This document shows positions 1-47,467 of a stretch of DNA of 47,467 bases, one piece after another. The stretch comes from Cochliopodium minus (lineage: Eukaryota > Discosea > Himatismenida > Cochliopodiidae): NCBI GenBank assembly GCA_024220525.1, contig JAMYWO010000218.1, forward strand, positions 10,529 to 57,995, given 5' to 3'. How positions within the stretch are numbered: position 1 is the stretch's first letter; each line of letters begins with the position of its first letter. The notes beneath the pieces are model-generated. The model saw only the letters and a list, made by a program, of their open reading frames with translations, was not told where the DNA came from and made no database searches. The position numbers and the translations under genes are program-made.

Positions 1-43
1 TTTTATTTTTTATTTTTTATTTTTTATTTTTTATTTTTTATTT

Positions 44-72
<29 letters not shown>
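1..72. repeat. (TTTTTTA)n heptamer array at window start
   Basis: About nine copies of the heptamer TTTTTTA, slightly irregular at the right end, run up to the acceptor of the receptor exon at 84. The same heptamer on the same strand ends block B at 25322-25382, inside the receptor's last intron. The two arrays are probably the two ends of one intron repeat that broke the assembly. Confidence 0.85.
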
Positions 73-74
<2 letters not shown>

Positions 75-83
75 AAAAAAAAG

Positions 84-207
84 TGGTCCTTTGATAGGGT
101 TTATGAATTTTATTGTCTATTACATTTCCAAAAATCCTCCCAAACAGAACGATGAAACATTATCGCTCAATAATGCGAATCAGAGTAGAGACAATCACAG
201 TTATTGA
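84..207 (+). CDS. Last exon of a seven-helix receptor (helix 7 and tail)
   Basis: After an A-rich acceptor (AAAAG at 79-83) the frame starts in phase 2 and encodes a hydrophobic helix containing GFMNFIVYYISK, followed by a polar tail ending at TGA 205-207. A helix with Asn and a final Tyr, followed by a basic stretch, is typical of helix 7 in cAMP-receptor/secretin-like receptors. No start or upstream exons exist in this block. The six-helix receptor at 24046-25270 stops with two spare bases (TC) at a donor that leads into the same heptamer repeat. TC plus the T at 84 makes a Ser codon and keeps the frame. I infer these are one gene of 274 residues. Confidence 0.8.
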
Positions 208-374: not shown

Positions 375-1460
375 TTATTGAGGATAAAGGAACAAGCAAT
401 TAACTAAAACAATATTGAGGTATTATGGCAGGACTTGAAGCGGTTGGAAAGGTATTTGGAGAGGTAGAAGAAAAGGAAGAGGTGGAGGACAAATGTTGGT
501 AGTTGGAGAAAGGAAAGTTATAGTTGAAAAGAGACATCGCCTTAGTAAAAGTTTATGGAGACAATAATATAAATAATATTTTTAGTGATCAATAAAGGAG
601 TATCCACACTGCAATATGTATACCAGAACTTGCAAAGACAGGAAAAACTTTTTTGGACAAAAGAGTTCCTATTGAATCCCCTAATTTACCTTTCCTTGTT
701 CTTGATGGGTTGGTGAAGATGGAATCAAAGGTAATGGAGGTGATAATTCCATCCACGGATAAAGTGAACTGAATTCCTGCTTCTGAATCTGGACCATATG
801 GGTTTTGATGGACAGTGAAAGGGTGGAGGAGAAGATACTTTCGGGGTTGCAGGTTGGATAATTAAAGTGACCGCAGAATGCTCCTGTCACTCCACAGTTT
901 GAGATTTCACTCACGGATGCTGGAACGAAGTAAAAGGTTCCTCCACTTCCTGCTACTTTGATACAAAAAGAAGATGCAATTGTTGATGCAGTACACGAGA
1001 CTTCACAAGATGTTGTACAATAACTTGCTGTGCAACCTGTACTGCAACTTGTTGTTGCTTCTCCTGTATAAGATGGTTGTCCAACAGATCCATTTGTAAG
1101 TGGTCCCTCCTGAGATGGTATCTTCTGATCCTGCCTCCATTATAAGCTCCTCCAATCACGAATCCATCTGCACCTGGATATCCAAAATGAATGATTCCTG
1201 ATGTTGGTTGGCAGATACATATCCTATTTCTGGAGCGGATCCTGTGAAACATGATTCTCCTTTTGATGCTATTATGTTTATCAATAATGAAGATAATTCA
1301 GATCCTTTAGTACATGCTCCCAAATAACTAAACGAACCTTATCTTGTAATTTTGTAAAATCTCTTCCTAATCTGCGTGTTGTGTTCAATAACCTTCCATC
1401 ATATACAAAAGCTCCTTCAACACATGGAAATAGAATAAACGAAATCAAAGTAAAACAACC
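375..1460 (-). pseudogene. Decayed copy of the secreted Cys-rich/DUF4082-like family
   Basis: The minus strand carries every segment of the family in order but in different frames. There is a signal-peptide-like start (LISFILFPCVEGAFVYD) near 1380-1450 and a core with CQPTSGIIHFGYPGADGF near 1160-1225. The Cys-rich middle near 960-1060 is in another frame. ISNCGVTGAFCGHFNYPTC lies near 850-905, a beta-domain piece (EAGIQFTLSVDGIITSITF) near 725-775 is in a further frame, and the end near 375-420 (LNIVLVNC) resembles the family tail LDIVFYPC. No initiating ATG is present, and one base is missing in the signal-peptide region compared with the paralogues. Multiple frameshifts make this a pseudogene rather than a single sequencing error. 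Confidence 0.85.
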
Positions 1461-1657
1461 TATTTATGTGAAACTGGAATTTATAATTAATTATAAACCA
1501 AATATTTTGATTGTATGACTTCGGTATTATATTTATTTCTATCTGTAATAAACGAAAGATTTATAAACTAAAAACAATTACCCAATGAAGTCAAAATAAT
1601 AATTTAATATTCAAACAATACAATAAATCAAGGAAATAAAAGCGATTTATTGATTTT

Positions 1658-2323
1658 TTAGGTGGTTGGATAAGCAAATTTGGTGCAACATGATCCACTT
1701 CCTCCACAATTTGTAATATCGCCTGATGAAGTGTCATCAGGGACGAAATAAAAGGTTGCTCCATTTCCTGTCACATCTTCACAAGTTGCACTACTTGCAG
1801 TTATTGATGCAGTACACGAGACTTCACAAGATGTTGAACAATAGTTTGCAGTGCAACCAGTGCTGCAACTAGTTGTTGCATCTCCTGTATAAGTTGGTTG
1901 TCCAACAGATCCCCATTTGTAAGTGGTCCCTCCTGAGATGATATCTTTTGTTCCTATTCCCCCAAAGTTTGTACCTCCAATCACAAATCCATTTGATCCT
2001 GGATATCCAAAATGAATTTTACCTGATCCCATGTGTGGTTGACAGATATATCCTATTGTATCCACTGTTCCAGTTGATGAATCTGTGAAACATGATGATC
2101 CAATCGCAGCAACTTTTATTGAAATATCAGTCAATCCTGTTGAAGTTCCTGATGGACATATTCCTTTGTAAATGAAAGATCCATATCTTATACTACCTGT
2201 AAAATCTCTTCTCATCACTCTGCTTTTTGTTGTATTCAATAATCTTCTATCAAATACGAAGGATCCCTCGACAAATGATAGTAAAGCAAATGAAATCAAA
2301 AGTAAGATTATAGCTTTTCTCAT
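1658..2323 (-). CDS. Short secreted Cys-rich protein, family member without the C-terminal beta domain
   Basis: 221 residues from a clear ATG. Residues 1-20 form a signal peptide (MRKAIILLLISFALLSFVEG), followed by the family N-terminus with RRLL and RDFTGSIRYGSF. A Gly-rich core follows (HFGYPGSNGFVIGG), then a dense Cys block (CSTGCTANYCSTSCEVSC) and the conserved FVPDD and CCTKF segments. It stops at AYPTT, where the longer paralogues continue for about 150 more residues into the DUF4082-like domain. No remnant of that domain is obvious downstream before the pseudogene. It may be a natural short form or a truncated copy. A secreted or cell-surface role is inferred; function is unknown. The copy at 3882-5027 is the best full-length comparison. 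Confidence 0.8.
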   Translation of the reverse strand: MRKAIILLLISFALLSFVEGSFVFDRRLLNTTKSRVMRRDFTGSIRYGSFIYKGICPSGTSTGLTDISIKVAAIGSSCFTDSSTGTVDTIGYICQPHMGSGKIHFGYPGSNGFVIGGTNFGGIGTKDIISGGTTYKWGSVGQPTYTGDATTSCSTGCTANYCSTSCEVSCTASITASSATCEDVTGNGATFYFVPDDTSSGDITNCGGSGSCCTKFAYPTT

Positions 2324-2358
2324 TTTTTTTTTTTATTTTAATTTTTTCTTTGTTTATC

Positions 2359-2379
2359 TGTCAAAATAATCCTATGGGA
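2359..2379 (-). promoter_or_regulatory. TCCC..GGA..TTGACA-like upstream motif
   Basis: On the minus strand this reads TCCCATAGGATT, then ATTTTGACA, 36-56 bp upstream of the ATG of the 1658-2323 gene. It resembles the two sites at 5115 and 5301 upstream of the paralogue at 3882-5027, though those lie in the opposite orientation. A shared regulatory element is an inference from similarity only. Confidence 0.3.
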
Positions 2380-2499
2380 CTCTTAATAAAAAAATCTCTT
2401 TAAAAATAAATGAATTTTCCAGACCATAATGAATTCATTCAATTTATGAAGATCATAAAGATAGTCATAATTTGTCAAAGAAATTTTAATTATTCATTT

Positions 2500-3615
2500 T
2501 TAACAAGGATTAAAAATAATATCAAGTGCAACAACTTTTTCGAAAGGAGCAGAAGGTTTGGTTAATGAAGCAGCATTGAAAGCACCTTTAAAGGTTAAAT
2601 GACGACCATTAGTAAAGCTAGATACAAAATTGAAATAGTGGAAATAATCAGGTCCGCCAAGTTCAGTCTGAAAAGAAACTATGTAGTCGACTCCTGAAGT
2701 AACTGGTAATGGAGGATTAAGAACTTTTCTTAACAAACCAGAACCTGTTTCCCCAGAGAAAGTTGCAATAGCCGAAGCACCAGTAGACCAAAAGTTAATC
2801 GTACGAGCGGTGGGATAAAAGACTTCGGCATTGAAGGTTACAGCAGATATAACACCATCGACAGAGGGTGTAAATTTAATCCCATATTCTCCTGTTCCTA
2901 TTGGTGTTGTAGGACCTTGATCAAAGGTACTTGCAAAAGAACCAGTGAAGAGATTCTCTGAACGACAAAAGTCATAGTCATACAAATTAGTGCCTGTAGC
3001 ACAACAATCGTTTGGTCCTCCACAGTTTGAAATCCCTGTAACAACATCCGAAGGAACGAAATAAATTGTTTCTGATCCAGTACTTGCGGGTGTTGAACAA
3101 GAAGCAGATAATGCAGATGTTGATGCAGTACACGAGACTTCACAAGATGTTGTACAATAACTTGCTGTGCAACCTGTGCTGCAACTGGTTGTTGCTTCTC
3201 CTGTATAAGATGGGTGTCCAACCTGTCCCCATACAAATGATGTTGCTCCAGAGATGGTATCTGCTGATCCTGTTCCTCCAAAATAAGCTCCTCCAATCAC
3301 GAATCCATCTGCACCTGGATATCCAAAATGGATGATTCCTGATCCTCCTGATGTTGGTTGGCAAATATATCCGATTGAATCTGCAGATCCTGTTGATCCA
3401 TCTGTGAAACATGTTGCTGAGGGAGAAGCTTTTTTGACTGAGATATAAGATAATGGTGCTCCTGATCCAGTTGGACATGCTCCCAAATAACTAAACGAAC
3501 CGTATCTAACACTTCCTGTAAAATCTCTTCCTAATCTTCTATGTGTGGAGTTCAATAACCTTCTATCAACTATGAAAGATCCTTCAAGGAAGGTAAATAG
3601 AATAAACGAAATCAA
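2500..3615 (-). CDS. Full-length secreted Cys-rich/DUF4082-like protein with no ATG start
   Basis: An open frame of about 371 codons with all family parts: a hydrophobic leader (LLLISFILFTFLEG), RRLLNST, RDFTGSVRYGSF, the Gly-rich core HFGYPGADGFVIGG, and the Cys block CSTGCTASYCTTSCEVSC. A C-terminal domain begins near YGIKFTPSVDGVISAVTF and ends LDIIFNPC. The C-terminal pattern (FT..VDG.I..V.., then W, GLL, P...G..YIVSF) matches DUF4082-type beta domains. Compared with the intact copy at 3882-5027, the region coding MKIAI has changed to AAGGGAAATTTTG. The frame upstream reaches a stop at 3646-3648 without any ATG, so it must start at a non-ATG codon, use an unseen exon, or be a recently silenced copy. 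Confidence 0.7.
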   Translation of the reverse strand: MISFILFTFLEGSFIVDRRLLNSTHRRLGRDFTGSVRYGSFSYLGACPTGSGAPLSYISVKKASPSATCFTDGSTGSADSIGYICQPTSGGSGIIHFGYPGADGFVIGGAYFGGTGSADTISGATSFVWGQVGHPSYTGEATTSCSTGCTASYCTTSCEVSCTASTSALSASCSTPASTGSETIYFVPSDVVTGISNCGGPNDCCATGTNLYDYDFCRSENLFTGSFASTFDQGPTTPIGTGEYGIKFTPSVDGVISAVTFNAEVFYPTARTINFWSTGASAIATFSGETGSGLLRKVLNPPLPVTSGVDYIVSFQTELGGPDYFHYFNFVSSFTNGRHLTFKGAFNAASLTKPSAPFEKVVALDIIFNPC

Positions 3616-3881
3616 AAGTAAAACAACAAAATTTCCCTTTTTTTTTTATTCTTTTTTTTAATAGTTCAAATTTAAAATAAAACCTAATATTGGATAATCT
3701 TTTATATTTTGATCAAAAAAAAAAAAAAAAAAAGAATAATTCCAAACCAAATTTTTGAATGAAAAGTGCAACAAAATTAAAAGTGAATAAAATTGGATGT
3801 TTTTGATTTATCAAATGTTTTCAAAAATAATTATATATATCAGATTTGGAAATTTATAATTTTTTAATTTTTTAGATTTAT

Positions 3882-5027
3882 TTAAGAGCAAGGATTAAAG
3901 ATAATATCAAGAGGAGCAAATTGATTATAAGCAGTATCTGGTTTACTTCCAGTTGTTAAGGTATAAAAAGGACCATTAGAAGTTAAATAACGGCCATTTG
4001 TGACTGGAGTAGAATATTCAAAATAAAATGAAGAAGGATCAGCAGCAGAAATAGGGAAAGAAACAATATAAACAGTGCCCGAACTTACACTTATTGGAGG
4101 ATTCAAAATAGTTTTTAACAATCCAGAACCACTTTCACTAATAAAAGTTGTAAGAGGAGAAACACCAGTTCCCCAAACACTAACAGTACGAGAATTAACA
4201 GTAATGGAATCTGCATTATAAGTCACACCAGCAATGACTCCATCAACAGAGGGAATAAATGTAATACCATATTCTGCTGTTACGGGAGGGGAGACTGGTC
4301 CAGTTGTATAAGTTGCAGAAAAAGTACCGGTAATGAGACTCTCAGATTGACAATAAGAAAAGAATGTGGATCCTGAACAACAATCATCTGGAGAACCACA
4401 GTTTGAGTAAGATGAATCCGCTCCTGAAGGAACAAAATAAACAGTTCCTGCTCCAGAACCAGTATTGGTAGAACAAGATACAGAAGCTGCAGCAATAGAT
4501 GTTGATGCAGTACATGAGACTTCACAAGATGTTGTACAATAACTTGCTGTGCAACCTGTGCTGCAACTTGTTGTTGCTTCTCCTGAATAACTTGGTGATC
4601 CGACCTGTCCCCAAACAAATGTTGTTGCTCCAGAGTAGGAATCTCCTGATCCAACAGATCCTCCAAAAAGAGCTCCTCCGATCACGAATCCATCAGTACC
4701 TGGATATCCAAAATGAATGATTCCTGATCCTCCTGATGTTGGTTGGCAGATATATCCGATTGAATCTCCTGATCCACTTAGTGTTTCAGAAAAACAAGTT
4801 TCTGCTCCTGCCCCGACTTTTGTAATCTTAACGTGTGGTAATGGTGCTCCTGATCCAGTTGGACATGCTCCCAAGTAAGAGAATTTTCCGTATCTTACAC
4901 TACCTGAAAAATCTCTTCCTAATCTTCTGCGTGTGGAGTTCAATAATCTTCTATCAAAAACGAATGTTCCTTCAACGCAAGACAACAATGCAAATGAAAT
5001 CAAAAGTAAAACAATAGCAATTTTCAT
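3882..5027 (-). CDS. Intact secreted Cys-rich protein with C-terminal DUF4082-like domain
   Basis: 381 residues and no introns. Residues 1-20 (MKIAIVLLLISFALLSCVEG) form a signal peptide. The middle region carries CQPTSGGSGIIHFGYPG, two W-containing Gly/Thr-rich strands and the Cys block CSTGCTASYCTTSCEVSC near residues 155-175, consistent with disulphide-stabilised extracellular structure. The last ~150 residues (EYGITFIPSVDGVIAGVTY to LDIIFNPCS) have the alternating hydrophobic pattern and G..YIVSF signature of DUF4082-like domains, better known from bacterial surface proteins. This is the only copy here with a normal start and full length. It sits head to tail with its paralogues. Adhesion or surface binding is a guess; the family is otherwise unknown to me. 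Confidence 0.85.
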   Translation of the reverse strand: MKIAIVLLLISFALLSCVEGTFVFDRRLLNSTRRRLGRDFSGSVRYGKFSYLGACPTGSGAPLPHVKITKVGAGAETCFSETLSGSGDSIGYICQPTSGGSGIIHFGYPGTDGFVIGGALFGGSVGSGDSYSGATTFVWGQVGSPSYSGEATTSCSTGCTASYCTTSCEVSCTASTSIAAASVSCSTNTGSGAGTVYFVPSGADSSYSNCGSPDDCCSGSTFFSYCQSESLITGTFSATYTTGPVSPPVTAEYGITFIPSVDGVIAGVTYNADSITVNSRTVSVWGTGVSPLTTFISESGSGLLKTILNPPISVSSGTVYIVSFPISAADPSSFYFEYSTPVTNGRYLTSNGPFYTLTTGSKPDTAYNQFAPLDIIFNPCS

Positions 5028-5114
5028 TTTTTTCTACTTTTCTCTCTTTTTTTTTTATTTTTTTTTATAATTTAATTAATTTTTTATTTTGTTTGATTTT
5101 TGTTTTTTAACTGG

Positions 5115-5133
5115 TCCCAAAGGAAATTTGACA
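5115..5133 (+). promoter_or_regulatory. Upstream motif TCCCAAAGGAAATTTGACA
   Basis: It lies 88 bp upstream of the ATG of the intact family member (5027). It shares TCCC...GGA, then TTTGACA with the site at 5301. Role inferred from repetition only. Confidence 0.3.
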
Positions 5134-5300
5134 ATCAAATATTTAATTCATTTTTTTTCTTTCTTTCTTTTCTTCTTAAAAGAAAACATAAAACAAATAA
5201 AAGCTTGGAAAGCCAACAGTAGTTATTTTTAAGACTTGATTTTCCTTCTTAAAAAAGGAATATTTTGAGAAATTAAAATTATATATTTCAGTTTGAACGA

Positions 5301-5319
5301 TCCCGCGGGAAGTTTGACA
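5301..5319 (+). promoter_or_regulatory. Upstream motif TCCCGCGGGAAGTTTGACA with GC palindrome
   Basis: It starts with the perfect palindrome TCCCGCGGGA, conspicuous in this base composition, and continues with the same TTTGACA tail as the site at 5115. It is about 274 bp upstream of the 5027 start codon. A transcription-factor site is plausible but not shown. Confidence 0.35.
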
Positions 5320-5689
5320 TGTGATTTTTTTTAAAAAAATTATAAATTAAAGATCTTTGATATTTTTTTTTAAAATACTCACAACAACCACTTCCATTTC
5401 CTCTCATTCAAACAATTAGTCTAATAAAGAAATATTTTAACCTTTATTTCATTCACTATATATTTTAAAATTTCAAATATTTTAATAACAGTTTATCAAT
5501 AGATCTATCCAAATCCTTTCCAGATATTTCTATTAAAAACAATATTAATTATTGATTTTTAGAGTTGAACAACTCTACCTTTTGCGAGGAATGATTCCAT
5601 TAATCTTATTGTTGATAAAATTCAATTATTTTTTTTTTTTTGAAAATCAAAACTTCATTAATTTTCACTGATTTATAAGTTAAAATTTA

Positions 5690-6246
5690 TTAAGTGCAAG
5701 GATAAAAAACAATATCGAGTTTTCCAAAATAATTTGCATTCATAACCGGAAGGGCACCACCAGTTAAAGTATACAAGCCAGATCCTTGAGCTGTCAAATG
5801 GAGGCCATTCGAATAAGTAGAAGGGGGACTTGAATTAGCATCTCCGGAATCACTACCACCAAAATTGATAGAAACGATATAATCTTGACCCGCTGTTATT
5901 TGGTAAGGTTGTGAGAGAGAAACAGTAATACTTGTATCACCACTATTAGGAGTACCTGTTCCTGTTATTTGACTTACACCTCCGCTCCAAATATGTACAG
6001 TTCTAGGGATAACTGTCAAACTAGCTTCGTAAGTGACTGCAGTGATCTTTCCATCAACATTCGATGAGAAGGCGATTCCGTACTCTCCTGTTGCTCCAAA
6101 TGCAGATTGAGTTTGAGGAAATTCAAAGTTTGTAAACATGCTTTCAGGCTCGCAAAAAGTAAATGAGGTGCAACAAGATCCTGTTGTTCCACAATTTTGT
6201 GGATCAGCACCTGTAGGAACAAAATAAAAAGTTCCTCCACTTCCTG
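5690..6246 (-). CDS. C-terminal half of a secreted Cys-rich/DUF4082-like protein, cut by the gap
   Basis: The frame enters from the N at 6247 and runs 185 codons to a stop, TAA at 5690-5692. It starts within the conserved GSGGTFYFVPTGAD segment, continues through CCTSFTFC, and contains the whole DUF4082-like domain (EYGIAFSSNVDGKITAVTY to LDIVFYPCT). Signal peptide, core and Cys block are missing and should lie beyond the gap. The sequence is more diverged from the other copies than they are from each other. In the block order I infer, this end of block A is an outer end of the scaffold. Confidence 0.85.
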
Positions 6247-6247
6247 N
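6247..6247. other. Single-N assembly gap between blocks A and B
   Basis: The gene on the left lacks its 5' half and the PPR gene on the right lacks its 3' half, so real sequence is missing here and one N cannot be the true size. The PPR gene's missing exons are found at 36420-37067, which argues that the neighbour shown here is wrong. Confidence 0.9.
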
Positions 6248-6323
6248 AAAAAATAAAAAATAAAAAATAAAAAATAAAAAATAAAAAATAAAAAATAAAA
6301 AATAAAAAATAAAAAATAAAAAA
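6248..6323. repeat. (AAAAAAT)n heptamer array at the left end of block B
   Basis: 76 bp of perfect period-7 repeat, T at every seventh base from 6254, starting directly at the N. It lies in the intron after exon 4 of the PPR gene. Confidence 0.95.
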
Positions 6324-6351
6324 CCAAAATCAAAAAATAAATATAAATAAA
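6306..6351. repeat. 46 bp identical to 37082-37127
   Basis: The shared stretch contains a non-repetitive core (AACCAAAATCAA) flanked by A/T repeat. Both copies lie in PPR-gene introns, in the same orientation, at the points where the two gene halves are cut. This is best read as two ends of one intron. Confidence 0.8.
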
Positions 6352-13301: not shown

Positions 13302-16300
13302 ATGAATTTATCTTTCAACGATGTTCCCAACATGTATTATGATGGGAACAATAATACAAAAAATAACTATAATCCACACAATTACCAAAACAATACCAAC
13401 AATATCGTAATAGAAGAGGATGATCTCTATCCTGATGAAGATGAAGAATTCATACCAGCAGAAACAACATCAAAAACAAAGAAGAAAAGAACAAATAGCA
13501 GAAATCAAAAGAAACCAACAAATGTTGGAGGAGATCAACAAATAAAAAGAAAATATCCCTACGAGTTGATAAAGAAGGGAGAAAACAATAATAATCTATC
13601 AAACAAAAAGAAAAGAGATGTGGATGTGGCAGATCAAATGATAGTGCCAGCAGAACATCTGCCGATACTAGCGAATAAAGTGATAGAAGGGATCCCTGAG
13701 GAAATAAATGTAACAAAATTAAAAAAAAATAATTTTTAAAATATTTCATAACCCAATCAAATCAATAAAAATGTAAAAAAAAAAATAATATTTCGAAACA
13801 GAGTACTGTTTTTCGAAATTTCATTAATTATTATTTCAATATTTTAATTTCTCATTTTGAATCAAATTAAGAATGAAATCAATCCTTTGTTGATCCAAAA
13901 CTATGTCATCCACTGCTCCAAAGATACAGAGAGATTCAGGGGAGAAACACTCATCGAGACGATGAGCAAAATAGTGGATTTTGTGAAAGAAGAAATATTG
14001 TATAAAAAACACTCAGAATACTTTGATAGCATAAAAGACATTTCTCAAAAAATAATGAGAGTAACTTGTAAAAGAAAATGATATAAACTTTAAATTAATC
14101 TAATATTCTTCTAATAAAAAACCCTTTTTTTAAAAAAAAACTTATAGCTGTTAGTCATGAAAGAGATTTGAAAATGTTCAGTGATTATTTAACGTTCATG
14201 GACTCTGTAGAAATGAGAAAGAAAAGAAGATACCAGAACAACAGCGAGTACAAGTACGTATGGAATAAAAACGACATCAGAAGATTCTTTGTAGCTTTCG
14301 AGAAGTTTGGAAACTCGCCTGTCGCAAATAAAGCCATCGCAAAAGAAATAGGAGAGGAGGTGCATCCAAGACACGTCGTTTATTTCAAGTCTTTGTTGAG
14401 AAAAACACTTAGAATTGCAAAGAACAAAAACATTGTTATTGATGATATTGAAGACACAATGCAAACAATAGTATCTTCTGGCGTCGATTACAATTCAAAG
14501 AAGAGAAATGACAAGGATCTTGTCACTCTTTTGAAGGACCGGGAGAATGATCCTAGCATTATAAACAGGAACAATGAGAACATTAACAGATTGGACCTTT
14601 CTGATGTGGAGAGATTACAAGAGAACAGCATGTACTCGAATTCTAATGTCAGTTTAACGAGCAATTATGTTGTAAAACCTGATCCTGGAAATAACAATAA
14701 CGATAACTATGGGAATGTTCAACAAAGCAACAATTTGCAGTATACTATTGAACAACAGCAACAATTACAGCAACAACAGCAACAGTCCAATTCCTATTTT
14801 TACAACCCTTACTTTTATTCTGGTACCAACAACATCACCAACAACAACAATACTTTTAACAACTACTTCAACATAAATGTGAACAGCAATGACATTAGCA
14901 ACAATATAACCGAATTGAATAACAACGATTCTTTACAAACAAACCATATCAAAGAAAATAATGATCATTTTTCAAACTCTGTGAACAACACCAATACTAA
15001 TAACATCACCACAGAAACCAGTATCAATAACACAAACATTGATCCAAGTTTCACAACAGAAATCAAAACTGAAACTACTGAGAATTTGGAATTAAAAAAT
15101 AAAATTCGTTTAAAAAAAGAAGTTATCAATCCCCCTCCTGTTTTTCCTACTACTCCACTTCTCCTTTATGAAAACTTTCAGAACTGCTCTTCTTTTGATG
15201 ACAGTGTTAAATTCAACTCCCCTTTTCTTGCATCCGACAACACTTATTCAACTAGCAACATTCCCACAACTACCCAAACTACTTCTCCTCTTTCTACTTC
15301 TACAAATCAATCATCTCTTCCTACTTATATACCCTCAAATATCAATCCAACCCCTCTCACCTTTAATGAAGATAATTCTTCAACTCCATTAAAAACTGTT
15401 CTTACTAATCCTTCTCGATCTTCTTCTATTAACAATACTACCCAGCTGACAAATTCCAATCAGTTTCTATTATCCAACACCAATCCATCCTCAAATCCTC
15501 CCGTCCAAAACAACAACCCACCAAACAATTACAGTTCAAACCAAACAAATTCACTGACAAATCCAAATCAGTTTCTAATTCCCAACCATATGAATAACAA
15601 CAATTCTCTTTCTAATTCTAATCAACACCACATTCAACTCTCATCTCCCAACACTCCCCTTTTCAACCCCATGCAAACCAATTCATCCTCAAATTCATCC
15701 CCCTCTCCTTCTATTCTCAAAAATTCAACACATCAATCACCAAATCTTGATCAGTTCCCATTTCCCAATCAGAGAGAATTCAATCAATCTCCCGTCATTC
15801 TCAGTACGTCCCTCCAAAACATAAGTCAATCTCCTAATCCAAACACAAGAAAATCCTCCAATATTAATCAATCTCCCTTCCCCAATCAAAGAGAAATCAA
15901 TCAATCTCCTGTCATTACCAATCCGTCCCTCCAAAACATAACTCAAACTCCCAACAACAATCACCAAAATTCCTTCCAAAACTCATCCCATAATAACTTC
16001 ACTACCAAGCAAATTCCTTCTCATCCCCAATCCAACAATGCAACCCACATTCAAAGCCCCTTCTTCAATAAAAATAACAATGATGTCAATGAGAGTAATA
16101 ACACTGGCACTATCAAGAAGGATACCATCCATGATAATAACTTTAATGATCAGAATAACAATAATAACTTCAATAAAGACAATAACTTTGTTAATGACAA
16201 CGTCTGCAATAACAATAACTCTAATTATAACCTTAACAATTATTATCTCAGTGACAATAACAACATTAATTGCCAGAAAAACAACTTTAATAATGTTAAC

Positions 16301-16762
16301 AATGGTAACAACTTCGATGATAACAACCACAACAATAATGTCAATACTAATAACATCAATAATGTCAATAGCAATAACTTCAACACTTCCAATAATTATG
16401 AAAGAGATAATAATAACTTCAATAATGACAAGTACGAGAATAACTTTGATAATAACAACAACCACAACAACAATAATGTCAATATTAATAACAACAACCC
16501 CCACATCCAAGATCATATCTTCAACAATTTTGACTTTAACTCCAATAATAATCTCAACAATGACAACACCTTCAACAATAACTCCAACTATTTTCATGAG
16601 AACGCCAATAATAACACCACTAACAATTATAACGGTAACTTTGGGCATCCTCCTAATCCCGACAACATCTTCCTTCTCAACAACTTCTTCAAACAAGAAG
16701 GCTCTCCTCCTGTTAATCCTCCCTCCTATGGCAACAATCATCTCTATCCCCAATCCAAATAA
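13302..16762 (+). CDS. Asn/Gln-rich nuclear protein with a SANT/Myb-like domain
   Basis: Exons 13302-13709, 13872-14067, 14148-16762 give 1072 residues. The N-terminus has an acidic patch (EEDDLYPDEDEEF) and Lys-rich nuclear-localisation-like clusters (KTKKKR, NKKKR). After a charged helical region, residues ~235-290 read YVWNKNDIRRFFVAFEKFGN and continue with KAIAKEIGEEVHPRHVVYF, the W...F..AF..FG pattern of a SANT/Myb-type helix-turn-helix. The remaining ~780 residues are low-complexity Asn, Ser, Thr, Pro and Gln, with a polyQ stretch near 14755-14780 and long N runs. A chromatin or transcription role is inferred from the domain. The N-runs resemble those common in Dictyostelium-like genomes. 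Exon 2 uses the donor at 14068, which fits the phase of the next acceptor. Confidence 0.75.
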
Positions 16763-24045: not shown

Positions 24046-25270
24046 ATGTATGTTTCATCTGTATTAAATTTGATAAGTTGTTTTCTATCCATTTTTGGAA
24101 GCAGTTTCATTATAATTCAATTTCTCAAACACTTCAAATCAAGGTGAGTCGAAAAATTTTACATAAAAATAAAATTATAAACCGAATTTGGTTTACATTC
24201 AGATCAGATATAAGAACAATAGTATTTTTCATAGCAATATGCGATCTGATGTTCTCATCAACTGCTTTTATATCTGGAATGATATTGATGTTGAAGCCAA
24301 AAGACTATGCATTTAAAATGTGTATTGTATTTAGAAGTATAATAGAATTTGCAATAATATCATCTGTAAATGAATGCCAATAATTTAAAGAAATATAATT
24401 ATTTCCACCAAATAAATAAATGAATTTTAGTTCTCATGGGCATCTATCATGGCAATCTATTTATTCAAATCAGTCAAAGATTGGAATTTTTTTTCATCCA
24501 AAAGAAGAAAATTTTGGATCTTTGCACATGGTTGCAGCTGGGGAATTTCAGGAGCCTCTTTAGTTGTAATTAAACTTTTTTCTTCCAATAAAAACAAAAA
24601 GTTTTAAATTAACACATTAAACAATTTTCAAAAAAAAAAATTGAATAGGTGATTATATCAAAGGGATTATTTGATACAAAATCTCAAAATGGATGGTGTA
24701 CATTGCCAACAAATAATTGGGGATGGTTTAAATCATTTTTTTTTTTATTTTTTATTTTTTTTATTTTTTGATTTTAAATAAGGTGGACTTTCTTTTTTAC
24801 TCCTTTGATTATTTCTTTGACCATCAATATAGTTTTGTATATCATGATAATTAGAAGAGCGTCATTTTTGAAAGAGGATATCAGGTAATAGACAATAAAA
24901 ATAAAACAAATAAAAAATAATAATAAATAAATATTTAAATAAATAAAATAAAATAATATTTTTAATAATAAAAATTGATATTTAATAAATAAAAATGGAT
25001 ATTTAAATAAATAAAAATAGATATTTAAGTAAATTGAATAAATATTAAATAAAATAAAATAAATATTTTTTTTAAAAAAATTTTGTAGAAAATTCATTTC
25101 TCGAAGATTATCCCTTTATTTGGTTGTATTTTTGATTGCATGGGTATTTATAATTTTTTCTTTTTTAAATTCTTGTTTTTATTGTTTATAAAAATGCAGT
25201 TTCCTGATTTTCTTCACAGTTTTATTGACCTAGTGTTTGGATACAAAATTTGGCCAATAGAAGATGTCTC
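24046..25270 (+). CDS. Seven-helix receptor, exons 1-7 (helices 1-6)
   Basis: Exons 24046-24143, 24203-24365, 24431-24565, 24649-24725, 24783-24884, 25089-25143, 25200-25270. Hydrophobic helices in order: LISCFLSIFGSSFIIIQFL; IRTIVFFIAICDLMFSSTAF; CIVFRSIIEFAIISS with WASIMAIYLF; FWIFAHGCSWGISGASLVVI; WWTFFFTPLIISLTINIVLY; RLSLYLVVFLIAWVFFPDFL. A conserved WC-type loop (NGWCTLPTNNWGWW) precedes helix 5, as in cAMP-receptor/secretin-like receptors. The last exon ends with two spare bases at a GT donor followed by the heptamer repeat and the N. Helix 7 is absent here and is supplied in phase by the exon at 84-207, for a total of 274 residues. The G-protein-linked role is inferred from topology. 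Confidence 0.85.
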
Positions 25271-25321: not shown

Positions 25322-25382
25322 TTTTTTATTTTTTATTTTTTATTTTTTATTTTTTATTTTTTATTTTTTATTTTTTATTTTT
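25322..25382. repeat. (TTTTTTA)n heptamer array at the right end of block B
   Basis: 61 bp of perfect period-7 repeat running into the N at 25383, inside the receptor's last intron. It is the same unit and strand as at 1-72. Confidence 0.95.
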
Positions 25383-28300: not shown

Positions 28301-28675
28301 TTTTACATCCATTTTGGATGGTGATTTATCCACGTTATTATTTTCATTTGATGTATTTTCGCCTTTAATATCATTATTCACTTTCATATCACTGATATCC
28401 TTATTATCCTTTCCTTCTTCAATATTATTATTTAGCATTTCTTTATTTTCCTCTTCTTTAATTTCAGAAATTTTATTATTTTCATTGTCTCCCTCTATAT
28501 TTACTTTATCCTGTTCGATATTATTCCCTTCTTCTTTCTTGATTACATTATTGGGATCCACTTTATTTGGCGAAGAAACATTGGGTGTATTTCCATCCTT
28601 TTTCTTTTCATCATTACCAATTTTGGTATTAATCTTTTCTTGGACTGTATTCTTGACTTTATTGAACCAATCCAT
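25384..28675 (-). CDS. Golgin-like coiled-coil protein, 5' part
   Basis: Exon 1 is 28675-28114 and exon 2 runs from 28009 to the N; about 1062 codons and no stop. The N-terminus MDWFNKVKNTVQEKINTKIG can form an amphipathic helix. A charged low-complexity region follows (residues ~20-120), then about 850 residues of almost uninterrupted heptad coiled coil with internal repeats such as EEMENEKKE/KEIENEKEE and EKLESLENENK. The frame is broken inside one of these repeats at 25384. Long coiled coils of this kind tether vesicles at the Golgi or form cytoskeletal rods. The GRIP end that would identify it as a Golgi golgin is missing here but present on the fragment at 43849-47467. The two share a 77 bp identical stretch in the same frame. 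Confidence 0.75.
26389..26465. repeat. 77 bp identical to the window's last 77 bp
   Basis: Identical to 47391-47467; the next base on the left differs (C at 26388, T at 47390), and on the right the window ends. Both copies code NENETDKEKLNEMIEELKNE and following residues in the same minus-strand frame. Confidence 0.95.
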
Positions 28676-28886
28676 CGATTATATAAATTAAAGAGTACAA
28701 ATAACCTTTATTTCCTGTTTCTTTTTTTTTTATTTTTAATCACTGAAAAATTTATATTTGTTTTTATAAATTAAATTAAAAGAACACGAATGATTGAGAA
28801 AAAAGTTGAAATAGATATCTAAACACCACATTCATGTTGGATATTTTATTTTTATATTATTTTTAATTTAAACATATATTTTATAT
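28676..28886. other. Short intergenic region upstream of the golgin
   Basis: 211 bp of AT-rich sequence between the golgin start and the 3' end of the CPBP-like gene. Nothing recognisable. Confidence 0.5.
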
Positions 28887-36419: not shown

Positions 36420-37067
36420 TTATCCCCACTTGGTGACATCAAAATCCTCCAAACGCTCCTCCTTCTTCTCCTCCTTTACATTCTTCTTAAACTTGTTGTC
36501 CCTCTCAAGAAAGCCTCTCTGCTCACCATTATTAGAACCATTACGAGAAGACAAAAAAGAGGAAGTACTGTACATTTTATCAACCAAAATTTGTAACTTT
36601 TTCGATTTTTTTCGGAGATCCGGAGAAACATTTCTTATCGACTCCGAAATCTTCTTGAAAATGTTGGAGGTGGGGTAGATGCTGAGGTTCTCCATCATCA
36701 TGAGGGCTTTGTAGAGTCTGGACATGTCGCAGTTGTTGCAGTAGGAGTTTAAGAGAGCGCACCAGACGTACAAGTCTGGTTCAATAGAATCTTCTTGAAC
36801 CATCTGTTTGAAATATTTCTCCGCCTAGAAAAATTTCAAGTAATTTTTTTTTTTATTTTTTAATTATTTTTTATTTATTTTATTTTATTTTTTATTTTAT
36901 TTATTGATATTATTTATTTATTTATTTATTTTTTATTTTTTAAAAGTTTTTTTTACCTCGTGCAAAGAAGAAGGCAATGGATCTCTTGCATAAAAAGAAA
37001 TGATGGATGTGTAAGTTATAATGTCCCTTTTGAGCCCCAAAGTGTCAAACATTTTAAACAATTCCAG
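36420..37067 (-). CDS. PPR protein, 3' part (last two exons)
   Basis: Exons 37067-36957 and 36824-36420, both in phase 0, ending TKWG and a stop. The first starts mid-repeat (LELFKMFDTLGLKR), followed by DIITYTSIISFYARD and DLYVWCALLNSYCNNCDMSR, standard PPR helix A starts. The C-terminus is basic and charged. No start codon belongs to it. Preceding LELF with the end of the PPR 5' fragment (RNQSAV, exon ending at 6473) gives one repeat of exactly 35 residues, from DAITLN to DIITYT, and the whole reaches 547 residues with a length divisible by three. Intron sequence just upstream is identical over 46 bp to the intron after 6473. Confidence 0.85.
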
Positions 37068-37081
37068 CTAAATCAAAAAAT

Positions 37082-37127
37082 AAAATAAAAAATAAAAAAC
37101 CAAAATCAAAAAATAAATATAAATAAA
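37082..37127. repeat. 46 bp identical to 6306-6351
   Basis: It lies 15 bp upstream (minus sense) of the acceptor of the PPR exon at 37067. See the matching entry at 6306; it probably represents the same intron in two blocks. Confidence 0.8.
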
Positions 37128-37152
37128 AAATAAAAAATAAAAAATTTTAAAG

Positions 37153-37215
37153 ACTAACCTACTGTGTGAATGATGGAACCTTCTTGATGTTTGGAAGGAT
37201 CAACCTCCCACAACT
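37153..37215. other. Unplaced exon-like tail of block C
   Basis: 63 bp open on both strands and richer in G+C than an intron. Plus strand reads CVNDGTFLMFGRINLPQL after an AAAG acceptor and might precede the RapGAP exon across the gap, but the frames on the two sides of the N differ. Minus strand reads LWEVDPSKHQEGSIIHT before a GTAGGT donor and might be another PPR piece, but it is not needed for the 35-residue repeat. Not resolved. Confidence 0.35.
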
Positions 37216-37216
37216 N
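37216..37216. other. Single-N assembly gap between blocks C and D
   Basis: The PPR gene on the left is cut on its 5' side and the RapGAP on the right lacks its 5' end. The PPR 5' part lies at 6473-8271, so the right neighbour of block C is more likely block B. Confidence 0.85.
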
Positions 37217-38084
37217 TTGCATTCCATATTGGACCTGTCATGTCCGAAGAAGAGAAGAGGAGGTTGATCGGCAACGACAATATTCTCATCTTGTATTCAG
37301 AAGATCACGATTATCCAATTCACAAATTCAGAGGGAGTGTCAACTGTAAAAAATAAAAAAAAAAATTATTTTTCCATTTTTTTTTCTATTTTATTTTTTA
37401 TTTTTTATTTTTAATGTTTATTTTTATTTTCATTTTATTCAATAACATTTTAATAATATTTTTTAAAAGCTGTTTGCTTGGTTGTCCATCCCTCCAAGAA
37501 AACCAAGGACAATTTTCTTATCAGGGGATCTTTGAGGAAGGATATCCTTCAAAACCTTAAAATATGTAACATACCAACAGGCAAGAAATCTTTTCATCAA
37601 AAATTTAATTTATAAAATAAAATCAAATAATAATTAAGAAAAATATAAATTAAAAAAAAATATAAATTAAAAAAAAATATAAATTAAAAAAATGACTAAT
37701 TTAAAAAAGAATTTAATATGAAAAATAATTTAAAATTAAAAAAATAAAAATAATTAATTTTTAAAAGAAAAAATTTGATGAAAAAAATAATTTTTTTTGA
37801 TGGAAAAATTAAATTTATTCAATTTAAATAAAAGAAATTTGAATTATATTAAAAAAATTTATTTTTTAAAAAGATTTATTTTTTAAAAAGATTTATTTAT
37901 TTTTTTTAAAATTTTTTTTTCAGAGGAAATTAGTTTGGATCAAGTGAAGGACATCATTTTGTCTTCAGTTATTAACTTTACCCAAGCTGTACTCGAGACT
38001 GGAAAACTTTCTGATCTTCGAAGGAAAGCCAGGACGAGCAAAATGGAGGATATAATAAATTATCATGTCGAGAAAGTCAATTGA
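37217..38084 (+). CDS. RapGAP-domain protein, C-terminal part
   Basis: Exons from the gap to 37345, 37470-37580 and 37924-38084 (TGA). The frame reads AFHIGPVMSEEEKRRLIGND, the core RapGAP motif; the Asn of GND corresponds to the catalytic 'Asn thumb' of Rap1GAP. It continues with ILILYSEDHDYPIHKFRGSV, VCLVVHPSKKTKDNFLIRGS and the C-terminal helix ILSSVINFTQAVLETGKLSD. It should accelerate GTP hydrolysis by a Rap/Ral/Rheb-like GTPase. All sequence before the motif is missing at the gap. The second intron (37581-37923) has a GC donor in a near-perfect GC-AG context (CAG then GCAAGA) and keeps the frame, with a Glu codon formed across it; no GT donor fits. The Ras-like gene downstream is a possible partner only by proximity. 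Confidence 0.8.
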
Positions 38085-38207
38085 TCCCAAAAGTTAAAGT
38101 TTTGAATGATTGTAGAAGTCCTAAATAAAAATAAATAAAAAAAATAAAAAAATAAAATAATAAAAAAATTGAATTAAAGAAGTTTATTTGGTTTATTATC
38201 TCATTCT

Positions 38208-41122
38208 ATGGACATCAAGATATGTTTTTTGGGTTCTTTGGAATCAGGAAAAAGTAATATATGCACCAGATATGTTTATGACAGTTTCAAAGATCAAGTA
38301 AACAACAATACCAAACAATATAAATTGAAATAAAAATATTCAACCCGAGAGATTAGGATGATAAAGTTAGCTTTTTTGATTCTAATCAAATATATATCTG
38401 AACATAACAGTTTTAAATTTTATATTCATAATATTGAACATAAATACTCAAAAATGCTTAAAATCATGAAGATTGCTCAAAATTAAATCACAAAATGTTA
38501 ATTAATGAATTCATAAGATTTTTCAATAAAATTTTTTGATTTAATTTCGATTATAAAGTTATAAAAAAAAATTTTCATTAAAATTAAATCACAATTAAGA
38601 AGATTTCTTTCAAGATTTTAATTTATTTTTGATCCTAATTACATTTTTAAATCAAATTTGACTTTTAATTTATATATATATTCAAACCAAGCTTTTATTT
38701 AAAAAAATAAAAATAAAAATTAATTTATTTATTCATTTTTAAATTGAAATAGTATTCCTATGAACACATTTTTGAAGAAAATTACAAAAAGAAAGTAAAA
38801 ATAAAAAGTGTGACTTATAATCTAGAAATAACAGATCTCCCTGGAGTAGAGTATTTCTACATAGAACACCATTATAAAGTCAATGAAGTGTTCTGCATTG
38901 TTTATGACATAACCAATCGAAAAACTTTTTTAGAATTAGAACGTTACATTGTTTCCATAAAGTACGTAAGGGAATCTGAGAAGTATAGAATTATAATTGT
39001 GGGAAATAAATGTGACATTAAAGATGCTAGAGAGGTATTTTTAGAAGAAGGGCAAAAATTCGCAGTGGAAAATGGTTTTTATTTAAAAAATATTCTATTT
39101 TTCATTTTTTTAAATAATAATTTTTTATTTTTGTTCTTGATTATTTTTTTCTTGATTATTTTATTTGTTTTTTTATTTTTTTGTAAGTTTATTTATTAAT
39201 TTTATCAAATTTTTTATTTCTTTAGTGATATTTTTTTATTTTTTATAATTTTTTATAATTTTTTAAATTATTTTGTTTGAATTTTTTATTTTTAAAAGGT
39301 TGTAAATTCTTTGAATGTTCCGCAAAAACAAATTTAAACATTTCCCAAATTTTCGAACAATGTGTCGAAGAAAGTAAATTAATAAGAGATCCTCTCTTTG
39401 ATAAGAAAAAAGTTTTAATAGAGTATCTGAAGAAATATGACATTGAATCTTTTAAAAGGATAATTAAAGAGAAATTCTTCAAGAAATTTGACCTTAATTT
39501 TCCTTATTTTTTTGATGAAAAGAAAAGAAGTAAATTTCCTATACATTATCTTTGTCAACACGAAAGAGTTGAATTTGTAAATTTTTTTGATTTATTTTTT
39601 ATTTTTATTTTTATTTTTATATTTTAGTTTTTCATTACTTTTTTTTGTTTTTTGTTTTTTATATTTTATCTTTAAAAATTTTTAATTTTGTTTTCCAGGA
39701 TTTTTTGGGTTTGTTGATAAAAAATAAAGCAAGCTTGAATGTAGAGAATTACAAAGGAAAAAGGCCAATTCACTATTTATGCAAGAACAAAAACAATTCT
39801 CTCAACTTGGTGAAATATCTGATCGAAAAAAAGGCAAAGTTGAATGTTTTGGACAACAATGAAAATAGCGCTCTTCACAGTGCCTCGAAAAATCAAAATT
39901 TAAATTTAGAACTTTTGAAATTCTTAGAAAATAATTTGAAACACTTCAAAGAGAACATACATGCAGACACCCCTTTTCATTCTCTTTGTTTGAACAAAAA
40001 CATCAATTTTGAAGTTTTGAAGTTTTTCGTTGATCTCTCTCAAAAAGAGAAGAAAGAAAAAAACTTCGTGAATGAACTTGGTAACACTCCTTTCCATCTT
40101 TTACTTTTGAATGAGAATTTGAGCTCTGAAATGATTCGTTTGTTTTTGGATAATGATTTTGATCCATCATTTCAAAACAAAAACAAAGAAAGTGGATATC
40201 TTGTTTTATGTAAAAACGAAAAATCAAACTTAGAAATGTTTAAAACAATTCTATCGTAAAAAATTTTTATTTTTCTTAATATAAAATCATTTATTTTTTA
40301 TTTATTTTTTGTTTATTTTTTGTTATTTTTTTAGAAATCAAAAATACAAATTCGATCCGAGGCAAAAAGACATTAAAGGAGAAGGCTTGCTTTATCATTT
40401 ATCTTCAAGAATCAAAACAGAAACAGTTGATAAAGAACTATTCCATTTTTTGATCGAGGAAGGTTGTACAAACACTTTTGGAGAGAATAGTGTTTGTGAT
40501 TCTCTGCTCTTTAATCTTTTGAAATTAAAAGATATTTCCCTTCTCGAAAAGTTTTTGTTTCACAATCGAGATTGTTTGATAGAAGCAAACCGCTTTGAAC
40601 TCTTTCCATTGCACTATGCGAGTGAATATTTTATTGAATCTGTGGATATTTTATTGTCTTACAAAGCAGATGTCAACATGAAAGACATAAATGGTAAACA
40701 ATAATTTCAAAAGTAAAATTATATTTAATTATATAAAAAATAAAAAAGGATTCAATTTCTATGAATATGTTTGCAAATCAAAATTCTTTAAATTCTCAAA
40801 GCTTTTAAATGACAAATTTCAAAGGATGATAATTTCTATTTTGTTAACCCATTCAGTTGATTTCAATAGCACTGTCAAAGAAAAAAGAGGAGAAGATTTG
40901 GCAAATTTTTTGATGTTGGATTGTATAAAAGACTACAAAAATAAAAAGCTGTGGAAAACTGAAAGACACTACCTTTTCCCTTCCTTGTTTATTCACAAAA
41001 TTTTCAATTTCGTTCTTTGTTGTAGTATTTCTAACAGAAGAAACAGAATTATCTTTCCAAAACCTGTTCTCAAAATGATCATTTCTTTTTATTCTCAAAT
41101 TTTTACCATCAAACAATTTTAA
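38208..41122 (+). CDS. Ras-like GTPase fused to ankyrin repeats
   Basis: Exons 38208-38297, 38753-39074, 39299-39576, 39699-40255, 40335-40693, 40749-41122; 659 residues. The P-loop is GSLESGKS (residues 9-16). The switch I region reads YEHIFEENY, without the usual Thr. G3 is DLPGVE in place of DTAGQE, so the catalytic Gln is Val. G4 is NKCD and G5 ECSAKT, both intact. From about residue 200 there are ankyrin repeats (RPIHYLCKNKNNSLNLVKYL, SALHSASKNQNLNLELLKFL, TPFHSLCLNKN, TPFHLLLLNEN, FPLHYASEYF), then a ~125-residue basic C-terminal domain. It has no CAAX box. The switch changes suggest slow hydrolysis and a GTP-bound bias. Intron 1 (455 nt) is unusually long for the window. Confidence 0.85.
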
Positions 41123-43660: not shown

Positions 43661-43848
43661 TTTTTTTATTTTTTATTTATTGTTCTTTTTCACTTTGAAA
43701 AAATCATTGAGAAAGATCAAATAAGAAGAATGCGTGAAATAGAATAGCATTCTCAAGTTCAATTATAATACAAACTCCTTTTAAATATTAATTAATTTTA
43801 ATTGTATTTATATATTTTTTTTTAATTAAATAAATTTGTGTTTGGAAA

Positions 43849-46800
43849 TCAAAACCAACCAAAAACTTTGCTTTCTCTATTTTCAATAAGTTTTTCCAAA
43901 CGTTGATACTCCTCCTTTGAAAACTGCAACAAAGTAGTGAAAATGGGCAACATAGACTTGCCATCCTGACTCTCAATGTACTTAATGACAACATTTTTGA
44001 GATAAAGTAAATCAACACCCTCTCTATTCTTTCCACGTGTATCTTCTCTTATTTCCTCTTTCAAAACATTGTTTTGTTCTGTCAAAAGTTTTTGCATTTT
44101 TAAGGATTCTGAGAGCTGTTCTTCGAGTTGGTTGATTTGTTGTCTCGCACGCGAAAGGTTCTTTGAGTTCATTTCTTTTGCTTGTTCATAAAAAAGTAGA
44201 TTTTTGTTTTCATAATCTGAATTGGATTCGGAATTATCAATTTTTTCATTCGAATCTTTATAAAATTGAAAAATAAATAAATAGAAAAAAGAAACTTTTG
44301 ATAATTTAAAATTAAAAAAAAAACTTTTGGAAGAATTTTATTCAAAAAAAAATTTAAATAAAAAATATTGATTAGTTTTTTTTTTTACCGAATTTCTTTT
44401 CTTCATCTGTTTTCTTTGGAGTAAAAGACAAAATATTTTCTTCCAAAATTTCTTCTTCGGTTTGAGGAACAGAGTTAGAATCGTTAAAGTTGTTGTTGGA
44501 AGAGATGATAGAATAAGAAAGGCTGTTGTCCAAAGAAGGTTTCTTCTTAACATTGTTGTTCTCATTATCTTTAGAAGGAGTGAAAAAAGAAGAAGATTGA
44601 AAATTAAAAGAGTTATCTTTTTCATTGTTATTTTTATCAAGAGGAGAATTTTCAAAGGAGGAAGTTTCTTCTTGTAAGTTGCTCTGTTGAATGTTTTTGT
44701 AGAGCTCTTTTATTTTGTAGTATTTCTTCGAACTTTGCTCTAACTTTTGGTTGTTCGCTTGGTTAGTTTCTTCTAACTGTTTTTGGTGGTCGTTGAACAA
44801 TTGCATGATCTTTTCTTCGTAATATTTTTTGAGGTTGGAGATTTCGAACTTGTGTTGATCTAATAACTTGTGCATCTCTTAATAAAAGAAAAATTAAAAA
44901 AATAAAAAGTAAAAAATAAAAAAATAAAAAAATAAAAAATAAAAGATAAAATTGAAAAAAAAAATATTAACAAAAATAAAAATAAAAAATAAAAAACAAA
45001 AAATAAAAAAATAAAAAAATAAAAAATAAAAAATAAAATAATAAAAATAAAATTGAAAAAAAATATTAAATAAAAAAATAAAAAATAAAAAATATAAAAT
45101 ACAAAATAAAAATAAAATAAAATAAATAAAAATAAAAAATAAAAAAATAAAAAATAAAATTAAAAAATAAAAAAACATAAAAAATAAAAAATATAAAATA
45201 TAAAAAATATTAAATGTACCCTCTTTATCTCTCTTCATATCTCCAATATCTATTTCTAGTTCATCTGCCTTTTCTTTGTAGCTTTGCAAAGTCTTGTTAT
45301 AATTCAAAAGTTCTTCAATCGTAGTCTTGAAGTTTTTCTGTTCATTCAAAAGTTCCTCGATGATCTCTTTTTTGTTAGTATCATTAGTATTAGTATTTAA
45401 ATTTGTTTCTGTTTGAGTTTCTTTCTCCTCGCTATTTTCTTCAGACGTGCTTTGCTTCTTTCTTGACTGGTTAATTGCGATAGTTGCTTTCTTCTTGTAA
45501 TTTTCGAAATCTATTTGAAGTTTCTCCAAGCTTTGTCTCTCCGTGTCATATTTCTTTTTCACCTAATAAAAAAAAATAAAATTAAAATTAATTTTATTTT
45601 TATTTTTTATTTATTTTATTTATTTTATTTTATTTTATTTATTTTATTTATTTTATTTTATTTTATTTTATTTTTATTTTTATTTATTTTATTTCTTAAC
45701 CTTCATCATCAATCTCTTCAACTTTTTGTTCTCCTCGTCCATTGTCTCCACTTTATTGGAATTTTCAACTTTATATTGACTCAAAATATCTTTTTCATTC
45801 TTGACACTGTCCAACTCTTCTTTCAAAAACTTTATTTCGTCGTTAAAACTTTGAATCTCATTTTTATACTTGATCTCATTGTCATTGTACTGGTTGATAG
45901 CAGATTTGAAAGAATTGATCTGTCTGCTTGCTTTCTGCAAAACACTCTTCACTTTTGTTAGTTCCTTTTCATTATTCGAACACTGGGTCCTCAAATCAGT
46001 CTCCTTTTGAGTCAACTCCTCAACCAATTTCTCAAATTCCAATTTTTTGTTTTGGAGATCTTCTATCTCCAGATATTTCTCTTTAATTTCTTTTGTAAAA
46101 GTCTCTACGTTTTGAGAGATATCTTCGTTCTTTGTGTTTGTTTCCTCTATCTTCTTGTTTTGTGTTTCTAGCAAGTTGCTCTTGATCTCTATCTCCATTT
46201 GCTGCTTTTTGATGATTTCCGCTTGCTGAGAAAACTTTAAATTTAGCTCTTCATTTTGTTTGTTGAGATTTTCCAACAAAGTGACTTTTTCTTTCAAGAT
46301 CTCCGACTGATTGTTGAATTTTTCAAAGATATCTTCAATGATTTTTGTTTTTTCGACAAGTTTCTCTGACAACTCTTCCTCATCTTTGTTTTTCTGTTGG
46401 ATCATTTCGTTAAGACTGTCTATTGTTTCCATTTGTTTTTGAATTTGGGTCATGTTGTTTTGGACAAGAATCTCCAAGTTTTGTTGAGAAGAGGAATTGG
46501 TTTGCATTTTAGAAATAAGTTCTTTGAATTGATGGATTTCTTTCTTTAAATTTTCGACTTGAATTTCGCTCTCCACAAAAGATTTCTCCATGTTTTCTTT
46601 TTCAAAATTTTTTTCTTCAATCATTCTCGACAATTCTTTTTTTTCTGAATCAATACTAATGTTCATTTCATTCAACATTTTGACTTTGTTTTCCAAATGT
46701 TCACTCTGTTGCTTGAAGGTGTCAATTTCATTTTTCATCTCCTCATTTTGTTTCTCCAATTCTCCATACTTCTGCGAGGTCTCTTGGATCAATATTTCTT

Positions 46801-47467
46801 GTTGTTTCACTTTGTTTTGTAGGATTTTGAAAGATTGAGCTGCTTTCCTTGCAAAATTTTCTTTTTCAGTCATTCTCTTTGTTATTTCTTGAATTTCAAC
46901 TTCCTTCTCTTTCTTGTATTCTTCCCACTTTTCGTTCAATTCACTTAAATTCTTCTCCAAAATTCCGTTCTTTCTTTTTTCTTCTTCAATCAAAATACTT
47001 TCTGTATCAGATTTTTCTGACATCAATTTTTCTTGGAAAAGTTTGTGATTCTTTTCAATTTCTTTCTTCTCATTTTCCAATTCCTCAATTTTCTTTCCTT
47101 TTTCAACAATATCATTCTCAATAATTTTAATTTTGTTTATTAATTCCCCATTTTCTTTCAAATTCTCCTCTTTTTCTTTCTCCCTTACACTTAATTCATT
47201 TTCTAAAAATTCCAATTTTTGTTTTGTGTTTTCGTTTTCTTCTTTCAAATTCTTCTTGCTTTCAAGAAGATCGGAGATTATTTTTTCGTTTTCATCCTTC
47301 AAATTTTCTATTTCAGATTTTAACAAGTCATTTTCTTTTTCAAAGTGAATTTTCTTTGATTCAATTTCTTTTTCCAAAAGATTATTTTTTTCTTTCAATT
47401 CATCTGTTTCGTTTTTTAATTCTTCGATCATCTCATTCAATTTCTCTTTATCAGTTTCATTTTCATT
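43849..47467 (-). CDS. GRIP-domain golgin, 3' part
   Basis: Exons from the window end to 45701, 45562-45220, 44877-44389 and 44255-43849; 1001 residues and a stop. Almost all is coiled coil with a Ser/Asn-rich break around LQEETSSFENSPLDKNN. The last ~60 residues (LLYLKNVVIKYIES, SMLPIFTTLLQFSKEEYQRL) form a GRIP domain with the Tyr that contacts Arl1 GTPase conserved, so the protein should sit at the trans-Golgi as a vesicle tether. No start: the frame runs off the window within a 77 bp sequence shared with 26389-26465. Together with the 5' fragment at 25384-28675 this makes at least ~2060 residues, a usual golgin size. Confidence 0.85.
44878..45219. repeat. A/T-repeat intron in the golgin
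   Basis: A 342-nt intron built of AAAAAT and AAAAAAT units. It produces a spurious hydrophobic reading frame on the minus strand and should not be taken as coding. Confidence 0.8.
47391..47467. repeat. Window-terminal 77 bp identical to 26389-26465
   Basis: The window ends exactly at the end of a 77-bp match. That length is what a de Bruijn-graph assembly with k=77 leaves at an unresolved branch, so the window end is probably a contig end rather than an arbitrary cut. Confidence 0.85.

Follow-up and report, generated by a model that had tools for sequence, protein, structure and literature searches.

Blocks of a draft genome scaffold appear to have been written in reverse order without reverse-complementing

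Introduction

Errors in which contigs are relocated or placed in the wrong order within a scaffold are a known kind of fault in draft genome assemblies. The case described here resembles these errors in that sound contigs seem to be misplaced and genes are split at the gaps. It differs in that the recovered order is the reverse one in the four scaffolds where this could be tested, with no inversion of any contig. Reverse order without inversion in four scaffolds points to the step at which the scaffolds were written out.

The ends of the misplaced blocks can be compared with the output of common assembly tools. De Bruijn assemblies (of the SPAdes type, with k = 77) have k-mer tails at contig ends. 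Likewise, two of the block ends in our data carry exactly 77 bases that are present elsewhere, whereas three other ends have no second full-length copy. In the output of scaffolders of the SSPACE and LINKS type, a one-base gap marks contigs that overlap. The joins in the window that we studied also have one N each, and the ends of two of the blocks (C and B) do overlap in sequence, but this assembly has longer runs of N as well.

Results

Four blocks separated by single Ns

The window, by which we mean the whole 47,467-nucleotide stretch of DNA that was analysed, is bases 10529–57995 of contig C218 (57,995 bases), or its right-hand part. The assembly has 598 contigs and a total of 44.65 Mb. 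The window's only non-ACGT letters are three single Ns, at the gap positions that a first-pass annotation of this DNA had given, and these divide it into four blocks: the boundary between blocks A and B is at 6247, between B and C at 25383, and between C and D at 37216. Block D reaches the right-hand end of C218. On the other side of the window the contig reads N, which could be a gap or hidden sequence. The window contains spliced genes, so its source is a eukaryote.

The annotation had described the gene orientations at the joins as compatible. This is correct for the A|B join as shown, which has minus-strand genes on both sides of the N, and incorrect for the other two. At the B|C join, a plus-strand gene and a minus-strand gene enter the N from opposite sides, and at the C|D join, both of the flanking genes lack their 5' parts on the side of the N.

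Two genes join in phase across the reversed order

The central proposal of the first-pass annotation was that the blocks are listed in reverse, and that the order D-C-B-A restores three split genes. We agree with this: the receptor and pentatricopeptide-type (PPR) genes described below join in phase, and the ends of C and B overlap by 46 bases.

Exons 1–7 of the receptor gene are at the right end of block B (24046–25270, plus strand; Pfam 7tm_2). These exons have GT/AG borders, and exon 7 ends in phase 2, with two bases of a codon followed by GT. At the left end of block A, an exon at 84–207 (plus strand) is preceded by AG, and its first base supplies the third base of that codon. The joined receptor runs from ATG to stop over 274 residues. 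The Pfam family 7tm_2 covers residues 5–183, all of which are from the part in block B, and the exon from A does not raise its score (27.6 for the joined protein versus 28 for the B part alone). The in-phase join that the annotation had claimed is present, but its placement of helix 7 in the exon from A is less direct: a plain hydropathy scan of the joined receptor did not flag a separate helix 7, and the assignment rests on a PLxGF motif. The exon from A has PLIGFM (within PLIGFMNFIVY), and another receptor from the same genome (on C96), which exceeds the cut-off for Dicty_CAR, has PLQGFF. Both sides of the receptor join are flanked by a (TTTTTTA)n array with the same unit on the same strand (25322–25382 at the right end of B and 1–66 at the left end of A, both on the plus strand), and the end of B matches the start of A exactly over 61 low-complexity bases.

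The PPR gene is on the minus strand. Exons 1–4 are at the left end of block B (8271 to 6473), and exon 4 ends with ...NQSAV, in phase 0 before GT. Exons 5–6, which reach the stop codon, are at the right end of block C (36420–37067), and the exon at 37067–36957 begins with LELFKMF... in phase 0 after AG. The joined protein matches the Pfam family PPR_3 with 52.4 bits, as compared to 22.4 and 33.4 bits for the separate parts. The match (residues 28–86) spans the join at residue 60. Furthermore, equivalent residues on either side of the join are 35 apart, which is one PPR unit, so the repeat register is kept. We found no homologues of the joined PPR protein at E ≤ 0.001 among 5050 candidates.

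Blocks B and C also have 46 identical bases, at 6306–6351 in B and 37082–37127 in C (both on the plus strand), and this identity takes in non-repetitive letters. Given this identity and its rarity (see the repeat scan below), C and B overlap in one intron of the PPR gene, and C, at least, has a wrong tail beyond the overlap. If the blocks are joined at these 46 bases, the intron would measure 181 bases.

That tail is the last 77 bases of C (37139–37215, minus strand), which are identical to C151:99612–99688. The copy is exactly 77 bases: it stops at a mismatch at one edge, and its other edge is the end of the block. The locus on C151 is a gene for electron transfer flavoprotein-ubiquinone oxidoreductase, or ETF-QO (PDB 2gmh, E = 1.1e-48). 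These bases had been read as an extra PPR exon, LWEVDPSKHQEGSIIHT. As they match the ETF-QO locus base for base, there is no PPR exon there, and the roughly 18 missing PPR residues that had been inferred from the model with this exon fell with it. For the PPR gene, the annotation's in-phase join between B and C stood.

A golgin gene is probably split between blocks C and D

The N-terminal half of a golgin gene leaves block C at its left end (25384–28678, minus strand), and the C-terminal half enters at the right end of block D (43849–47467, minus strand). The half in D includes a GRIP domain (46.3 bits) and the half in C is an N-terminal coiled coil. The order D-C-B-A sets the N-terminal half before the GRIP half, on the same strand. 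Block D closes the contig with 77 bases (47391–47467) that recur exactly inside C (26389–26465; both on the plus strand). Judging from the architecture, that is, position, strand, and the shared 77-base stretch, the two halves are likely to be one gene. The positions and strands of the halves are as the annotation had said, but no base-for-base joining is possible. The exact 77-base repeat sits in the golgin coiled coil, beside sequence that is similar but diverged.

Only one arrangement of the blocks gives all three joins

All three joins in C218 are restored by the order D-C-B-A with every block forward. If we consider the distinct arrangements of four oriented blocks and supply the joins as input, just 1 in 192 has all three of them, in keeping with the annotation's statement that the repairs have a single order in common and need no inversion. 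This order leaves two incomplete genes. One is a Rap_GAP gene without its 5' part at the left end of D (37217–38090, plus strand, with the end being approximate; 36.0 bits to positions 74–184 of the profile), which would be the true left end of the scaffold. The other is a cysteine-rich paralog without its 5' part at the right end of A (5690–6246, minus strand), which would be the true right end. Having incomplete genes only at the two ends of the scaffold is as expected for the order D-C-B-A.

The first-pass annotation had also named complete copies of the three genes elsewhere in the genome as evidence that would count against it, and we checked this in part. When the final 81 residues of the receptor were searched against the genome, C218 alone matched. 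A search with the PPR protein from exon 4 onward (a query that included the foreign exon) matched C218, as well as C151 via the foreign exon. For the golgin, there is a second GRIP match in the genome, on C473, and its sequence is different.

Repeats and 77-base tails at block ends

We scanned 193,338 readable bases (the window and 20 loci) for exact repeats that were at least 46 bases long and contained no fewer than 12 distinct 4-mers. The scan yielded local duplications in three loci (L008, L017, and L022), the paralogs in block A, and two pairs in the window. Both of these non-local pairs, which lie outside the block A paralogs, touch block ends. The right ends of C and D are exact 77-base copies of other places. 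For three other end 77-mers (C_L, A_R, and D_L), a search that skipped very common words found no second full-length copy, so a foreign tail is not present at every end. C_L has a partial match on C35 (84% over 50 bases).

The window contains three TTTTTTA arrays of at least five units, and all three are at block ends. In the loci sampled outside C218, 8 of 14 such arrays are at most 6 bases from an N or from the end of the fetched stretch, and the other 6 are interior, each being at most 63 bases long. The idea that TTTTTTA arrays are confined to block ends holds in the window and, as far as they were read, in five more contigs with Ns; in the remaining loci it does not.

Putative reversed joins in other scaffolds

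From each of 20 other contigs, we sampled the first 10 kb. Three of these are N throughout and another four start with runs of N. More generally, several contigs start with or contain long runs of N, in which a gap and hidden sequence look alike. Single Ns were found in five of the sampled contigs: C1, C216 (which has two), C220, C350, and C598. Outside C218, we looked just for adjacency in the reverse order, and joins that need an inversion could be missed.

Reversal fits four of the six single-N scaffolds that we examined (C218, C216, C220, and C598), with differing strength, and neither C1 nor C350, the remaining two, clearly contradicts it. We recovered six joins in these four scaffolds, and both blocks keep their plus orientation in each; the golgin was joined by its architecture and C598 by phase. 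We also viewed nine joins as shown in the assembly (three in C218, two in C216, and one each in C1, C220, C350, and C598) and saw no gene crossing any of them. At six of the nine (the three in C218, those in C1 and C220, and the second in C216), a recognizable gene is cut. The genes do not speak against the shown joins in C350, in C598, and at the first N of C216.

In C216, a PPIL2-type gene has its U-box half at the right end of block 2, and the sole match of this half in PDB is PPIL2 (7abi_t, residues 57–166). The left end of block 1 contains a cyclophilin half, which matches residues 328–470 of the same protein (111.1 bits); PPIL3 scores slightly above PPIL2 for this half (115 versus 111.1 bits). 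The halves follow each other if block 2 precedes block 1, with a stretch missing between them that includes part of the cyclophilin domain.

In C220, a block that starts at 3092 begins within a gene for sds22/PPP1R7. By a genome search, residues 20–81 of a relative were located at C220:38971–39153, to the right of the remainder of the gene; this N-terminal half was chosen among 73 leucine-rich matches. The joined protein aligns to residues 21–309 of human PPP1R7 (E = 1.5e-72), and the alignment has no gap where the halves meet. When compared to the relative P0004, the scores of the two halves add exactly (196 + 262 = 458), while the order as shown scores 262, the same as the C-terminal half alone. 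We had forecast a block end with a single N to the right of the N-terminal half, and a further N between the two parts of the gene. At the first of these places, the gene instead enters a run of N. This run may be hidden sequence, in which case the N-terminal half could continue inside it and the case of C220 would be weaker.

C598 was viewed as a whole and has two blocks. At its right end, block 2 has a phase 2 donor, and block 1 has, at its left end, an acceptor that fits this phase. The same TTTTTTA array, on the same strand, flanks both sides of the reverse join. The joined piece did not match any Pfam family at E ≤ 0.1, and the case rests on phase, strand, and the repeat. As for the remaining scaffolds, the right end of C350 has the start of another gene and does not visibly continue the left end. 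The shown join in C1 cuts a Rab-like gene, which we did not see continuing. A second prediction concerned an AAA gene on C215; scores were obtained for 19 of the 86 candidates, with none from this contig.

Discussion

We put at about 93% the probability that the contig sequences are sound and their order is wrong, with the list having been reversed without reverse-complementing its members, and that this fault extends beyond C218. A path reversed in this way was already suggested by the first-pass annotation. It explains the three joins in C218 and fits one join each in C216, C220, and C598. The annotation had treated the fault as belonging to one scaffold. The presence of the same fault in other scaffolds implies an assembly error rather than new biology.

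The error may have arisen as follows. The structure of the block ends suggests that a short-read graph assembly broke at (TTTTTTA)n arrays and short repeats. The arrays at the ends, together with the 77-base tails, point to a graph assembly with k = 77, which was probably the value used. Going by the genes, the scaffolding step would have linked the contigs correctly as D-C-B-A, and the program that wrote the scaffold would then have output the contig list back to front, leaving its members as they were. Equivalently, the order of the list may have been kept and the strand of every member flipped. Apart from the overall strand of the scaffold, the two descriptions give one and the same outcome, and sequence cannot separate them.

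A more ordinary explanation would be local misjoins, in which the scaffolder linked contigs wrongly at these sites and no rule applies across the assembly. Such errors would be consistent with shown joins that cut genes not seen continuing past the N, and several of the block ends carry repeats. However, random misjoins would place the partner pieces on other contigs, and the partners that we recovered are in the same scaffold, adjacent in the reverse order, and without inversion, for all six joins in four scaffolds. We therefore consider local misjoins to be very unlikely. We give practically no credence to the idea that the shown order is real, with the genes truly disrupted or rearranged in the organism, or with trans-splicing of their halves. 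Nothing beyond the recorded order itself speaks for this; against it, there is an N at each of the window's three breaks, ordinary cis splice sites fit together in phase, the ends of C and B have 46 bases of one intron in common, and the conserved genes sds22 and PPIL2 are affected in the same way. It is also quite improbable that the public record is in the correct order and that the reversal is just in the copy that we analysed.

A broader form of the reversed-list explanation is that all of the multi-block scaffolds in the 44.65 Mb assembly were written in reverse block order. We think that this is probable, and hold it with slightly less confidence because the block end in C220 is a run of N and may be hidden sequence.

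The finding is an assembly artefact to be corrected, and its interest is practical rather than biological. Studies of gene models, gene counts, synteny, or gene clusters that are based on this assembly will run into a wrong order wherever such joins occur. Conserved genes (sds22 and PPIL2 here) appear to be broken, and unrelated genes appear to be adjacent. If the reversal holds across the assembly, then gene order, and many gene models, would be wrong at every gap. In that case the remedy would be simple, as re-reversing the blocks would repair most of the models with no new sequencing.

Additional observations

The sampled contigs are nearly in order of length. C210, C215, and C218 are roughly 7–18 kb shorter than their neighbours, as if they had been shortened after being named.

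A genome search for the missing 5' part of the Rap_GAP gene in block D gave 82 matches, which were too many to single it out. The Rap_GAP family is large in this genome (82 exon-level matches at E ≤ 1).

Block A contains a family of cysteine-rich, secreted-looking proteins in tandem (589–6246, minus strand), in which five copies or fragments can be distinguished by eye, one complete copy having a match to DUF4082. Elsewhere in the window, going by the translations, we take 38753–41122 (plus strand) to be a small-GTPase-like gene that seems to extend into ankyrin-type repeats. Similarly, an open frame of 887 residues at 14099–16762 (plus strand) presumably has a SANT-like N-terminal part, and its remainder is very rich in asparagine.
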